Positions 19,943 to 24,798 of a stretch of 33,109 nucleotides of DNA are shown here, piece by piece. This DNA is from Actinomycetes bacterium. Lineage in GTDB: Bacteria > Actinomycetota > Acidimicrobiia > Acidimicrobiales > Palsa-688. Below the pieces are notes generated by a model, which was not told where the DNA came from, searched no databases, and saw only the letters and a list, made by a program, of their open reading frames with translations. Position 1 is the stretch's first letter, and the number at the start of each line of letters is the position of its first letter. The position numbers and the translations under genes were made by a program. The stretch lies in NCBI GenBank assembly GCA_021808785.1, contig JAKBAX010000011.1, positions 1 through 33,109 on the forward strand, read 5' to 3'.

Positions 19943-22798
19943 TCATGAGCAGCCGCTCGTCGTTCCGCACGACGGGCAGGCGTGGCAGCTACCGGCCCGC
20001 TGCATCTGAACTCCGCACTGGAAGCAGTAAGGGGCGTCCGATTCGATCATCGAGTGGCGCAGCTCTACGACCGGCGGCTCGCCCGCCACGGCGGGCATGG
20101 GGGTGGCGCTCGGCATCGGCAGCATCTCGGTCTCGGCCCCGGCGCCCGGCCCGGCGTCGAGGGGGATGTTGTGGGTGGTCGCCTCCTCCAAGCCGGGCAG
20201 CGTCATTTGCGTCCGCTCCTGCGACGTGAGCACGCCGAGCTCCACCCGGTCCTCGTAGGGCAGGTAGTCGACCGCCAGACGCCGGAAGATGTAGTCAACC
20301 AGAGACTGGGCGATGCGAAGCTCGGGGTCGTCGGTCATTCCGGCCGGCTCGAAGCGCATGTTGGTGTACTTGCGCACGTAGGTCGCCAGCGGTACCCCGT
20401 GCTGGAGGCCCAGACTGATGGCGATGGAGAAGGCGTCCATGATTCCGGCCAGGGTCGACCCCTGTTTCGACACCTTCATGAAGACCTCGCCGGGGCGGCC
20501 GTCGTCGTACTCGCCGACGGTGACGTAGCCCTCGCAGTCGGCGACCCGGAACGCGAACGTGCTCGACCGCCGCTTACGGGGCAGGCGCTCCCGGATGGGC
20601 TGCTTCACGACCACCGTGGTCTGGCGCTCCAGCGCCCTCTCCAACTCGGCCACCTTCAGGGCCAACTCGGCGTCGTGCACCTCCGCCGGCGACGCCGACG
20701 GATCGGCGACGGTCTTCTTGGCCGTGGCCAGGGGTTGGGCGACCTTGCAATTGTCCCGGTAGATGGCTACCGCCTTGAGACCGAGCTGCCACGCCTCGAT
20801 GTGCAGCTGCTCGATGTCCTGCACCGAGACTTCCTCGGGCACGTTGACCGTCTTGGAGATGGCGCCGCTTATGAACGGCTGGACGGCACCCATCATGGTG
20901 ATGTGGCCCCGGTAGTGGATCGTGTTGTCACCCATGGAGCAGGCGAACACGGGCAGATGGTCGGCGGTCAGGTGGGGGGCGCCCAGGATCGACTTGTGCT
21001 CGTCGATGTAGGCGACGATCTCCTCGATCTGGGTGGGCTCGTAGCCCAGGCGACGTAGCGCCCGCGGCACCGTCTGGTTGACGATCGACATGGTGCCCCC
21101 ACCGACCAGCTTCTTCATCTTGACCAGACCGAGGTCCGGCTCGATCCCGGTGGTGTCGCAGTCCATGAGCAGCCCGATGGTGCCCGTCGGGGCCAGCACG
21201 CTGGCCTGGCTGTTGCGTACGCCGTGCTGCTCGGCGATCTCCACCGCCGAGTCCCATGCTTCCTGGGCCGCCGACAGGATCTCCGGTGGGACCAGCTCCT
21301 CGTCGATGCGAGCCGCGGCGTCGCGGTGCATGCGCAGGACGTCGAGCATGGGGTCGCGGTTGGTCTGGTAGCCGGCGAAGGGACCCATGCGCGATGCCGT
21401 CCGGGCCGACGTGGCGTATGACTGACCGGTGAGCAGGGCGGTGATCGCCGCCGCCCAGGCCCGCCCGGCATCGGAGTCGTAGGGCAGACCCTGGGCCATG
21501 AGCAAAGCGCCCAGGTTGGCATAGCCGATACCGAGCTGGCGGAAGCGCCGAGAGTTCTCGGCGATGGCCTCGGTCGGGTAGTCGGCGTTGCCGACGATGA
21601 TCTCCTGGGCGGTGAACACACAGTCGGTCGCGGCCTTGAATCCGGCTACATCGAAGGTCCCGTCACTCTCCAGGTAGGTCAGCAGGTTGAGGCTGGCCAG
21701 GTTGCACGCCGAATTGTCGATGTGCATGTACTCGCTGCAGGGGTTGCTGGCGTTGATGCGACCGGCATTAGGGGCGGTGTGCCAGCGGTTGATAGTTGTA
21801 TCGAACTGCATCCCCGGGTCGGCGCACTCCCAGGCGGCCTTGGCGATCTGTCGGAACAGGTCCCGGGCCCGGATGGTATCGATCACCTGATCGGTGGTGA
21901 TGGCCCGCAGATGCCAGTCGGCGTCGTCGAGTACCGCGTGCATGAACTCGTCGGTGACCCGCACCGAGTTGTTGGCGTTCTGGTACTGGATCGAGTGGCA
22001 GTCCTTGCCGTCCAGGTCCATGTCGAAGCCGGCGTCTCTCAGGGCCCGGGCCTTGCGCTCCTCGATGGCCTTGCACCAGATGAAGTCCTCGATGTCGGGG
22101 TGGGCCGCGTCGAGGATCACCATCTTGGCCGCCCGGCGGGTCTTGCCGCCGCTTTTGATAGTGCCGGCCGAGGCGTCGGCGCCGCGCATGAAACTGACCG
22201 GGCCCGACGCGGTGCCCCCTCCCCGCAGCCCCTCCTTGGAGGAACGGATGCGCGACAGGTTGACCCCGGCGCCCGAGCCCCCCTTGAAGATGATCCCTTC
22301 CTCGGTGTACCAACGCAGGATCGAGTCCATCGAGTCGTCCACGGAGAGGATGAAGCAGGCCGAGCCCTGCTGAGGCACTCCCTTCACCCCGATGTTGAAC
22401 CACACCGGCGAGTTGAATGCCGCCTTCTGGTGGATGATCAGGTACTTGAGCTCATCGCTGAAAGCGATCGCCTCTTCGTCGTCGAGGAAGTAACCATCCT
22501 TGCGGCCCCAGGCGGTGACCGTGTCCACCACCCGGTCCACGACCTGGCGCAGCGACCACTCCCGGTCCGGATGGCCGAGCGTGCCCCGGAAGTACTTCTG
22601 GGCCAAGATGTTGGTGGCATTGAGACTCCAGGTGGAGGGTACTTCTACGCCGAGCTGCTCGAAGGCCACGGCACCGGTCGCGTAATGGACGATACGGGCG
22701 TCCCGGCGCTCCCAGACGACGGTGTCGTAGGGGTCGGCGCCGGCCCGGGTGAAGTGCCGGGTGATGCCGATTCCCATCCGTTCGGGCGCTATTGCCAT
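19943..22798 (-). CDS. nrdJ: Class II (adenosylcobalamin-dependent) ribonucleoside-diphosphate reductase
   Basis: Makes deoxyribonucleotides using B12 radical chemistry, independent of oxygen. The 951-aa protein has the large catalytic barrel with GSACFILSVDDSMDSI, FKGGSGAGVNLSRIRS, NPCSEYMHIDNSACNLASLNL and the APTGTIGLLMDCDTTGIEPD block. A TSCPD domain follows (about residues 750-880), then a short linker and a C-terminal zinc-ribbon-like tail with two CxxC pairs, CFQC and CPSC, that ends in the redox-relay type sequence. There is no N-terminal ATP-cone. The ATG at 22798 has AGGAGGAG about 6 nt upstream. Its leader contains a near-consensus promoter and an NrdR-box-like palindrome. No class I or III reductase gene is present in the window. 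Confidence 0.96.
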   Translation of the reverse strand: MAIAPERMGIGITRHFTRAGADPYDTVVWERRDARIVHYATGAVAFEQLGVEVPSTWSLNATNILAQKYFRGTLGHPDREWSLRQVVDRVVDTVTAWGRKDGYFLDDEEAIAFSDELKYLIIHQKAAFNSPVWFNIGVKGVPQQGSACFILSVDDSMDSILRWYTEEGIIFKGGSGAGVNLSRIRSSKEGLRGGGTASGPVSFMRGADASAGTIKSGGKTRRAAKMVILDAAHPDIEDFIWCKAIEERKARALRDAGFDMDLDGKDCHSIQYQNANNSVRVTDEFMHAVLDDADWHLRAITTDQVIDTIRARDLFRQIAKAAWECADPGMQFDTTINRWHTAPNAGRINASNPCSEYMHIDNSACNLASLNLLTYLESDGTFDVAGFKAATDCVFTAQEIIVGNADYPTEAIAENSRRFRQLGIGYANLGALLMAQGLPYDSDAGRAWAAAITALLTGQSYATSARTASRMGPFAGYQTNRDPMLDVLRMHRDAAARIDEELVPPEILSAAQEAWDSAVEIAEQHGVRNSQASVLAPTGTIGLLMDCDTTGIEPDLGLVKMKKLVGGGTMSIVNQTVPRALRRLGYEPTQIEEIVAYIDEHKSILGAPHLTADHLPVFACSMGDNTIHYRGHITMMGAVQPFISGAISKTVNVPEEVSVQDIEQLHIEAWQLGLKAVAIYRDNCKVAQPLATAKKTVADPSASPAEVHDAELALKVAELERALERQTTVVVKQPIRERLPRKRRSSTFAFRVADCEGYVTVGEYDDGRPGEVFMKVSKQGSTLAGIMDAFSIAISLGLQHGVPLATYVRKYTNMRFEPAGMTDDPELRIAQSLVDYIFRRLAVDYLPYEDRVELGVLTSQERTQMTLPGLEEATTHNIPLDAGPGAGAETEMLPMPSATPMPAVAGEPPVVELRHSMIESDAPYCFQCGVQMQRAGSCHACPSCGTTSGCS

Positions 22799-22831
22799 GC
22801 CACTCTCCTCCTGAAATCGCTGTAGGCCGAA

Positions 22832-22849
22832 ACCACAAGACGTTGTGGT
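22832..22849. promoter_or_regulatory. NrdR-box-like palindrome in the nrdJ leader
   Basis: Perfect inverted repeat ACCACAA-GACG-TTGTGGT. Its 16-bp core keeps the CwA and TwG triplets and the 3-3-4-3-3 layout of the NrdR box (consensus acaCwAtATaTwGtgt); only the centre differs. A half-site CCACAA at 22875-22880 lies exactly 42 bp away, about four helical turns, over the predicted transcription start. NrdR represses ribonucleotide reductase genes in many bacteria, so placement before nrdJ fits. No nrdR gene is in this window. Confidence 0.55.
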
Positions 22850-22892
22850 CTCGTCGGCGAGATACCCCCGCCGCCCACAACATGAGGACCAA

Positions 22893-22922
22893 ATTACAAC
22901 ACCGTAGTTTCACCCTTGTCAA
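22893..22922 (-). promoter_or_regulatory. Predicted sigma70-type promoter of nrdJ
   Basis: Reading on the minus strand, a perfect -35 hexamer TTGACA (22922-22917) is followed after 18 bp by TGTAAT (22898-22893), which matches five of six -10 bases. This stands out in a GC-rich sequence. Transcription would start near 22886, giving a leader of about 88 nt before the nrdJ ATG. Confidence 0.65.
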
Positions 22923-23313: not shown

Positions 23314-24798
23314 ATGGCGGTGGTCCTCGCAGTGGACGCCGGGACCACCGGGGTGAGGTCGCTGGCGGTGGACGAGTCCGGACGGGTGGTCGCTTCCCGC
23401 TACCAGGAGTTCCCCCAGTACTTCCCCCGTCCGGGATGGGTGGAGCACGACGCGGAGGAGATCTGGCAGGCGGTGGCGGGCACCCTCGCCGACCTGGTGG
23501 CCGGCCTGCGACTGCCCGTCGCCGCGGTCGGGCTGGCCGTCCAGCGGGAAACGACCGTGGTCTGGGACCGCCGGGAGGACCGTCCGCTGCACCGGGCCAT
23601 CGTGTGGCAGGACCGCCGCACCGCCGGGGCTTGCGAACGCCTCGAGCAAGAGGGCCATCTGGCCATGATCCGGGCCCGCACCGGCTTGGTCCTCGACCCG
23701 TATTTCTCGGCCACCAAGCTGGCCTGGCTGCTCGGCGAGGGGGGCGTGACCGCCGGCCCCGACACCGCGTTCGGAACGATCGACTCGTGGCTGATCTGGC
23801 GGTTGTCGGGAGGTCGGGCCCACGTCACCGATCCCAGCAACGCGTCACGAACCATGCTGTTCGACATCGCCCGGCGGGCCTGGGACGACGAGCTGACCGG
23901 ATTGTTCGGAGTGCCCGCCTCGATGCTGCCGCAACTCGGACCGTCGAGCGGCCGCCTGGCCCGGACCGCGGACGGGGTCGTGCCCGGCCTGGCAGGTGGG
24001 ATACCGGTGAGCGGAGTGGCCGGCGACCAGCAGGCGGCGCTGTTCGGCCAGGCCTGCTTCGAACCGGGCATGACGAAGAACACCTATGGCACCGGGAGCT
24101 TCGTGCTCATGAACGTCGGCCGGGAGCCGCCCCCGCCGACCGATGGGCTGCTGACGTCGGTGGCCTGGTCGCTAGGCGACCTGTCCGCCGACCACACCGC
24201 CTACGCCCTCGAAGGCGCCGTGTTCGTGACCGGTGCCGCCGTCCAATGGCTGCGCGACGGCCTCGGCCTCATCTCCGAGTCGGCCCAGATCGGCCCGCTG
24301 GCGGCATCGGTAGCCGATACCGGCGGGGCCTACTTCGTGCCCGCCCTGACCGGCCTCGGCAGCCCGTGGTGGGACCCTCACGCGAGGGGGACGATGGTGG
24401 GTCTCACCCGGGGAGTGGGCCGGGCCCAACTGGCCCGGGCGGTGGTAGAGGCGATGGCATTCCAGACCGCCGACGTCGTCGTCACGATGGGCCGGGCCAG
24501 CGGCCACGGGATCTCGGAGTTGCGCATCGACGGAGGGGCGTCGGTGATGGACCTCCTGCTGCAGCTCCAAGCAGACGTGACCGGCATCCCGGTCCGGCGG
24601 GCCGCGGTCACCGAGACAACCGCGCTGGGAGCCGCCTTCCTGGCCGGGCTGGCCGAGGGGGTCTGGGGGTCGCTCGACGACCTGGCCGGCCTGTGGACCG
24701 ATTCGGCCGTCGCCGTACCGGCCGCCGACCGGACCGCGGTCACGACGGCCTACGAGGGCTGGAGCCGGGCCGTGGCCCGGGCTCGGCACTGGGCCTGA
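23314..24798 (+). CDS. glpK: Glycerol kinase (FGGY family)
   Basis: Phosphorylates glycerol to sn-glycerol 3-phosphate using ATP. The 494-aa protein has the ATP-binding start VDAGTTGVRSLAVDESG, IVWQDRRTAGACERL, DPSNASRTMLFDI, the GlpK block GMTKNTYGTGSFVLMN, YALEGAVFVTGAAVQWLRDGL, LTGLGSPWWDPHARG and the C-terminal DGGASVMDLLLQLQADVTG signature. Similarity to E. coli GlpK extends along the whole length, which separates it from other FGGY sugar kinases. The ATG at 23314 is where family similarity begins; the frame is open further upstream without similarity. No glpF or glpD is adjacent. The product could feed the PlsC-type acyltransferase nearby. It converges with the ACT-domain gene across 16 bp. 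Confidence 0.94.
   Translation: MAVVLAVDAGTTGVRSLAVDESGRVVASRYQEFPQYFPRPGWVEHDAEEIWQAVAGTLADLVAGLRLPVAAVGLAVQRETTVVWDRREDRPLHRAIVWQDRRTAGACERLEQEGHLAMIRARTGLVLDPYFSATKLAWLLGEGGVTAGPDTAFGTIDSWLIWRLSGGRAHVTDPSNASRTMLFDIARRAWDDELTGLFGVPASMLPQLGPSSGRLARTADGVVPGLAGGIPVSGVAGDQQAALFGQACFEPGMTKNTYGTGSFVLMNVGREPPPPTDGLLTSVAWSLGDLSADHTAYALEGAVFVTGAAVQWLRDGLGLISESAQIGPLAASVADTGGAYFVPALTGLGSPWWDPHARGTMVGLTRGVGRAQLARAVVEAMAFQTADVVVTMGRASGHGISELRIDGGASVMDLLLQLQADVTGIPVRRAAVTETTALGAAFLAGLAEGVWGSLDDLAGLWTDSAVAVPAADRTAVTTAYEGWSRAVARARHWA

Follow-up and report, generated by a model that had tools for sequence, protein, structure and literature searches.

The window analysed here, the whole stretch of 33,109 nt, carries on its minus strand the gene nrdJ (19943..22798), which encodes an adenosylcobalamin-dependent class II ribonucleotide reductase of 951 aa (NF005122, 1430.6 bits against a cut-off of 859). 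It is the sole gene for a reductase large subunit detected in the genome (4.9 Mb, 90% complete; one match to PF02867), and the same search gave no second such gene for comparison. The sequence AGGAGGAG (22805..22812, minus strand) is the likely ribosome-binding site of nrdJ, and the divergent neighbour, at approximately 23314-24798, encodes a glycerol kinase. Near relatives by nrdJ are labelled, for example, Actinomycetes bacterium, Acidimicrobiaceae and Acidimicrobiales; no plasmid records resembling the nrdJ promoter region were found. The nrdJ frame of the window is uninterrupted. Long in-frame, intein-like interruptions were seen in nrdJ of other genomes (G005, G006, G007, G013, G016, G017, G022, G031 and others) and in recA (G004, G007, G024, G040, G041, G059), where the open frames reach about 700-2000 aa and match the profiles in pieces. 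The recA gene of the window's own genome is split over two contigs (G000:C528 684-1433 and G000:C34 733-984), each part lying within a longer open frame, which suggests an intein at the assembly break.

The promoter of nrdJ, assigned from the sequence and from an alignment of the promoters of relatives, consists on the minus strand of the −35 element TTGACA (22917..22922) and, after a spacer of 18 bp, the −10 element TGTAAT (22893..22898), which is preceded by TGT (extended −10). Transcription is predicted from the promoter to start at 22886, 7 nt past the −10 element. The preliminary description of this DNA had named both hexamers correctly and had called the promoter near-consensus. The second base of the −10 element is G, however, and for this reason a strict σ70 scan finds no promoter in the stretch. 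σ70 prefers A at this position. In the 81 nrdJ regions with a recognisable promoter, the second −10 base is G in 98%, the columns around the −10 element read AA(T/C)TAC(A/G)-GTGN-TGTAAT, and the spacer between −35 and −10 is conserved as strongly as the NrdR boxes described below.

The transcribed leader contains, at about +38 to +55, the perfect palindrome ACCACAACGTCTTGTGGT (22832..22849, minus strand), designated here NrdR box 2, which ends 33 bp before the ATG of nrdJ. The arms ACCACAA and TTGTGGT around a GACG centre are thus present exactly as described earlier, and the scored core, CCACAACGTCTTGTGG (22833-22848), fits the box core CCACAANNNNTTGTGG at 12/12 positions. The window contains one mismatch-free copy of this core and two sites with at most two mismatches (0.59 expected), whereas the whole 4.9-Mb genome contains one exact copy, and a backward control pattern also occurs once. 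Since the control equals the real count, the palindrome is by count alone within chance, and the case for it rests on position and conservation. A total of 132 nrdJ upstream regions were gathered, 56 from 55 genomes (the window's own included) and 76 from 80 named loci, four of which (L151, L157, L158, L173) had no usable N-terminus. After the removal of three regions that were too short and four duplicates, 125 distinct regions remained, mostly from Acidimicrobiia but including distant groups (Saccharibacteria, Rhodococcus, Nitriliruptorales). The best box fitted CCACAANNNNTTGTGG at 10/12 or more in 88 of the 125 regions, against 17 of 2500 mononucleotide shuffles, and a box of this quality was missing in the other 37. 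Recurrence of the motif near nrd genes of relatives, the absence of which would have spoken against an NrdR box according to the preliminary description, was thus found. One nrdJ upstream region (L052, G017:C22 25938-25972) carries a tandem pair of exact NrdR boxes at a distance of only 19 bp.

A second, degenerate box, GGTCCTCATGTTGTGG (box 1; 22875..22890, minus strand), covers the predicted start point. A half-site CCACAA at 22875-22880 on the plus strand had been noted there before; it is present, but as part of a whole degenerate 16-bp box, and the distance of 42 bp assigned to it is exact, the centres of boxes 2 and 1 lying at 22840.5 and 22882.5. Box 1 scores only 7/12, and its assignment comes from the sequence, a best-second-site histogram and a paired-box scan. 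In the 88 regions with a good box, the best second site on either side was found at 42 bp in 30, at 41 bp in 7, at 31 bp in 20 and at 32 bp in 15, i.e. in 72 of the 88, whereas about 6 would be expected at these 8 of 122 offsets if the sites were distributed uniformly. The weights of the second-site score were chosen after the data had been seen and the scoring was thus not blind. As 740 of 880 shuffles also gave some second site at the threshold, only the offsets carry weight. An earlier profile of mean scores by offset, diluted by the mixed spacings, had shown little and was superseded by the histogram. When box 1 was restricted to 16-23 bp from the start of the McdR operator (see below), 60 of 74 strong pairs were at 31, 32, 41 or 42 bp. 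In most relatives, box 1 starts 7-10 bp past the first −10 base, with box 2 in the leader. The paired-box spacings indicate that box 1 is anchored to the promoter and that box 2 follows downstream at a distance of three or four helix turns; with a 26-bp spacer between its boxes, the window represents the four-turn form. The placement of the palindrome inside the leader, previously regarded as unusual, is consequently not a local oddity, as most relatives share the arrangement. Nor is roadblock repression, suggested on account of that placement, supported: with box 1 over the predicted start point, NrdR and RNA polymerase would be competitors at initiation, and occlusion of the polymerase fits the layout better. 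If box 2 stood alone, a roadblock in the leader would be possible, but the presence of box 1 renders that explanation unnecessary. These regions provide numerous natural examples of NrdR operators whose box 1 keeps to the start point while box 2 shifts by one helix turn.

The presence of nrdR in the genome, also proposed as a check beforehand, was established (TIGR00244, 161 bits against a cut-off of 124.65); the gene lies on another contig than nrdJ. Of 53 genomes, the window's own included, 44 have nrdR, and a box of at least 10/12 occurred in 40 of these, as against 3 of the 9 lacking the gene (p=0.0006, uncorrected for kinship), and the three nrdR-less genomes with a box are assemblies only 75-89% complete. 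Alignment of the genome's own NrdR to the Streptomyces and Escherichia coli NrdR structures showed that the RRRR motif and the specificity residues D and R, whose roles are described in PMC9110341, are kept. The linker of this NrdR is of the longer, E. coli-like length, and so are the linkers of all 30 NrdRs examined (27 by script and 3 by eye), which represent 30 of 50 genomes with a match. Linker length was considered as a determinant of box spacing and rejected, since it is the same in three-turn and four-turn genomes. No NrdR box was found in the 320 nt upstream of the genome's own nrdR, and none of at least 9/12 upstream of nrdR in 30 of 30 genomes. With the repressor encoded, two palindromic boxes beside the reductase gene, their integer-turn spacing and the co-occurrence of box and repressor, the predicted NrdR operator at nrdJ is very likely. 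NrdR control of reductase genes is already well known and the operator itself is of the known kind; its layout is conserved here but unlike the textbook one.

The palindrome of box 2 might also act in RNA, as a leader hairpin involved in attenuation or mRNA stability. The leader does fold at −42.2 kcal/mol (z −3.71), and the complementarity extends at least 7 pairs beyond the 16-mer in 4 of the 88 regions, with a mean extension of 1.57 as compared to 1.24 (sd 0.10) when the flanks were dealt among the genomes. Within the box, however, single changes that break a pair are common and compensated double changes are rare (28 vs 3 at pair 6 and 23 vs 1 at pair 2). The box spacing moreover tracks helix turns, and the window gave no Rfam match at the gathering threshold. 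We therefore regard an RNA element instead of a DNA site as highly improbable. In four regions (L046 of G006, L103, L014 of G011 and L045 of G005), box 2 lies inside an inverted repeat with arms of at least 13 bp, unlike in most relatives.

The earlier interpretation, although partly supported overall, overlooked a second operator. The sequence AACTACGGTGTTGTAATT (22892..22909, minus strand), which overlaps the spacer and the −10 element, fits at 10/12 the motif AATnACAnnnnTGTnATT, with its 4-bp centre, published as the site of McdR/ResR (Rv1830), a checkpoint regulator of mycobacteria (PMC9040748, PMC10336103). The motif was taken from these publications and not derived from the sequences analysed here. 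The G at the second −10 position, odd for a −10 element, is demanded by the motif of this predicted operator. The site, which has two deviations from the 12-position motif, is the only one of 10/12 in the 33 kb of the window (0.04 expected). Sites of at least 10/12 were found in 76 of the 125 nrdJ upstream regions (0.7% of dinucleotide shuffles) and in 17 of 30 recA upstream regions (0.3% of shuffles; the set comprises those 30 of 60 genomes with a match that were assigned a locus), whereas upstream of nrdR none of at least 9/12 was found in 30 regions. A McdR-like site (at least 9/12) was retained in 6 of 9 genomes lacking nrdR and is therefore not part of the NrdR site. The upstream region of the genome's own recA contains a 10/12 McdR site together with the SOS-like box CGAACGGGTGTTCG, and in many of the recA regions (L222-L251) the McdR-like site starts a few bases past an SOS-like box, CGAACN4GTTCG. 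LexA and McdR would thus stand side by side at recA. LexA was set aside as a regulator of nrdJ, as the SOS-like boxes found lie in recA promoters and none was noticed among the nrdJ promoters viewed. On this evidence, McdR control of nrdJ, as predicted, is likely. What is new in the present findings is the predicted McdR operator at nrdJ and recA, which the sequences strongly support. No literature linking Rv1830 with ribonucleotide reductase was found in open-licence papers, so that novelty is not established; in the same type of source, no literature was found on NrdR in Acidimicrobi, the matches listed for McdR with nrd concerned unrelated subjects only, and "nrd" is absent from the main text of PMC9040748 and PMC10336103.

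The same conservation could also arise if NrdR acted alone and the spacer and −10 element formed an unusually conserved strong promoter read only by RNA polymerase, as the consensus −35 at 17-18 bp and the extended −10 (TGN) would allow. This is unlikely in view of the base G where the polymerase prefers A, the fit of a published operator at 10/12 or more in so many nrdJ regions, and the distribution of the element. In its relaxed form (at most two mismatches), it has a single match in the genome besides that at nrdJ and hence does not represent a general promoter. The element also recurs in recA promoters which have no TTGACA at 17-18 bp, and before mcdR-like genes. Searches for exact forms of the element in 61 relatives and 396 genomes of the phylum gave 52 distinct matches (after the removal of 3 seen twice): 35 at nrdJ, 5 at recA, 7 at mcdR-like MerR genes (the gene being visible at 6 and cut just past its start codon at 1), 2 at SMODS-type nucleotidyltransferase genes and 3 unclear or cut. 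The backward controls of these searches gave 0, 1 and 0 matches. As the search patterns were derived from nrdJ, the nrdJ matches were expected, whereas those at recA and mcdR were not.

The first candidate for a protein reading the spacer element was PafBC, the DNA-damage activator that works via sigma adaptation, with the element as its −26 site; nrdJ and recA, both typical damage genes, would then be damage-induced. The genome has a tandem WYL pair, its PafB matches the solved PafBC at 6e-34, and a PafC from the same order matches at 1e-37. TGT and TA are 16 apart, which is also the distance in TGTCRG-N10-TANNNT (PMC8151990), and the spacing of PafBC sites is similar to that of the element (PMC8151990, PMC5656591). 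Unlike the PafBC site (PMC6789036), however, the element is palindromic; it has TGTAAY instead of TGTCRG, and the final T of TANNNT is unconserved (28%), so that it does not conform to a −26 site. PafBC was set aside because the published McdR motif fitted the element at more positions, and we consider its action here improbable.

A mcdR-like MerR gene occurs in the same-order genome G046 (L267), adjoining genes for a bifunctional-nuclease-domain protein (PF02577) and for FtsR (NF050798, 229.8 bits against a cut-off of 150), a neighbourhood resembling that of Rv1828-Rv1829-Rv1830. Five loci from a family outside the class have a related MerR gene with 35-39% identity to that of L267. Two perfect McdR-like palindromes, AATTACAnnnnTGTAATT, 14 bp apart and sharing four bases (AATT), precede the mcdR-like gene at L291, L292, L294, L295 and L298, and at L292 the nuclease-domain gene again adjoins it. 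These paired palindromes point to a likely self-regulation; the text passages of PMC9040748 place mcdR under WhiB2 and mention no self-site. At two loci of one genus (L286, G246:C10; L297, G150:C21), a TTGACA promoter with an exact McdR-like element stands before a SMODS-type cyclase gene (PF18144; an oligonucleotide cyclase according to PADLOC), as if this anti-phage gene used an nrdJ-type promoter.

The observed sequences, their conservation and geometry, the match to published motifs and the presence of nrdR are best explained, with fairly good probability, by a σ70-type nrdJ promoter (TTGACA, 18 bp, TGT-TGTAAT) bearing operators for both NrdR and McdR/ResR; inferred are the binding of the two proteins, the sense in which McdR acts and the site where transcription starts. 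Upon build-up of dATP, the NrdR tetramer loaded with dATP/ATP would occupy box 1 at the start point and, four helix turns further on in the leader, box 2; it would bend the DNA across the start site and shut out RNA polymerase. Polymerase blocking by NrdR has been proposed for Streptomyces coelicolor (PMC9110341). McdR/ResR, a checkpoint regulator of the MerR family, would bind the 18-bp palindrome formed by the spacer end and the −10 element. Regulators of the MerR type usually activate from mid-spacer. Because the centre of the operator is too close to the −10 element for this, repression is favoured, most likely by covering the −10 element. In Mycobacterium smegmatis, McdR overexpression raises the level of recA mRNA (PMC9040748), which argues against plain repression unless the effect is, possibly, indirect. 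With the same operator near the SOS box of recA in the same organisms, one regulator could set dNTP supply and recombination together.

A wider proposal, to which we assign about even chances, is that McdR/ResR in Acidimicrobiia controls both recA and the reductase directly, via an operator merged with the −10 element and stacked, at nrdJ, on the three- or four-turn NrdR operator, that dNTP supply answers both to dATP and to a division and repair checkpoint, and that McdR regulates its own gene in at least some lineages. DNA supply may thus be tied to a cell-cycle checkpoint. If true, the stacked McdR/ResR site would link an essential regulator, associated with antibiotic resilience in tuberculosis, directly and anciently to DNA precursor supply. 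This bears on the question of which targets McdR/ResR has outside mycobacteria and why this regulator touches replication.

Among the closest known systems is the nrdRJ operator of S. coelicolor, in which NrdR represses a class II nrdJ and two palindromic boxes lie at the start point or close to it (PMC9110341). Its boxes are separated by three turns and its nrdR belongs to the nrdJ operon, whereas here the separation is four turns, nrdR is found box-less on a different contig, and the leader contains box 2. The long-spacer NrdR operators of Streptococcus pneumoniae are similar in their 25-26-bp spacer, in the about 42 bp between centres and in the seven-residue linker of NrdR, and differ in phylum, reductase classes and position, their boxes lying upstream of or over the −35 element instead of at and after the start point (PMC12051234). 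Shahid et al. 2025 (PMC12051234) described a second binding optimum at about four turns, and since many phyla were surveyed there, the four-turn spacing is not claimed to be new for the phylum. The −26 element of PafBC in mycobacterial recA is likewise a spacer element upstream of −10, but of a different, non-palindromic sequence. The mycobacterial whiB2 operator of McdR/ResR shares the motif AATnACAnnnnTGTnATT and a position near the promoter core (PMC9040748). The direct targets shown in that work are whiB2, MSMEG_0833 and MSMEG_5468, with recA only rising on overexpression, whereas here the predicted target is nrdJ (and recA) and the operator lies on the −10 element itself.
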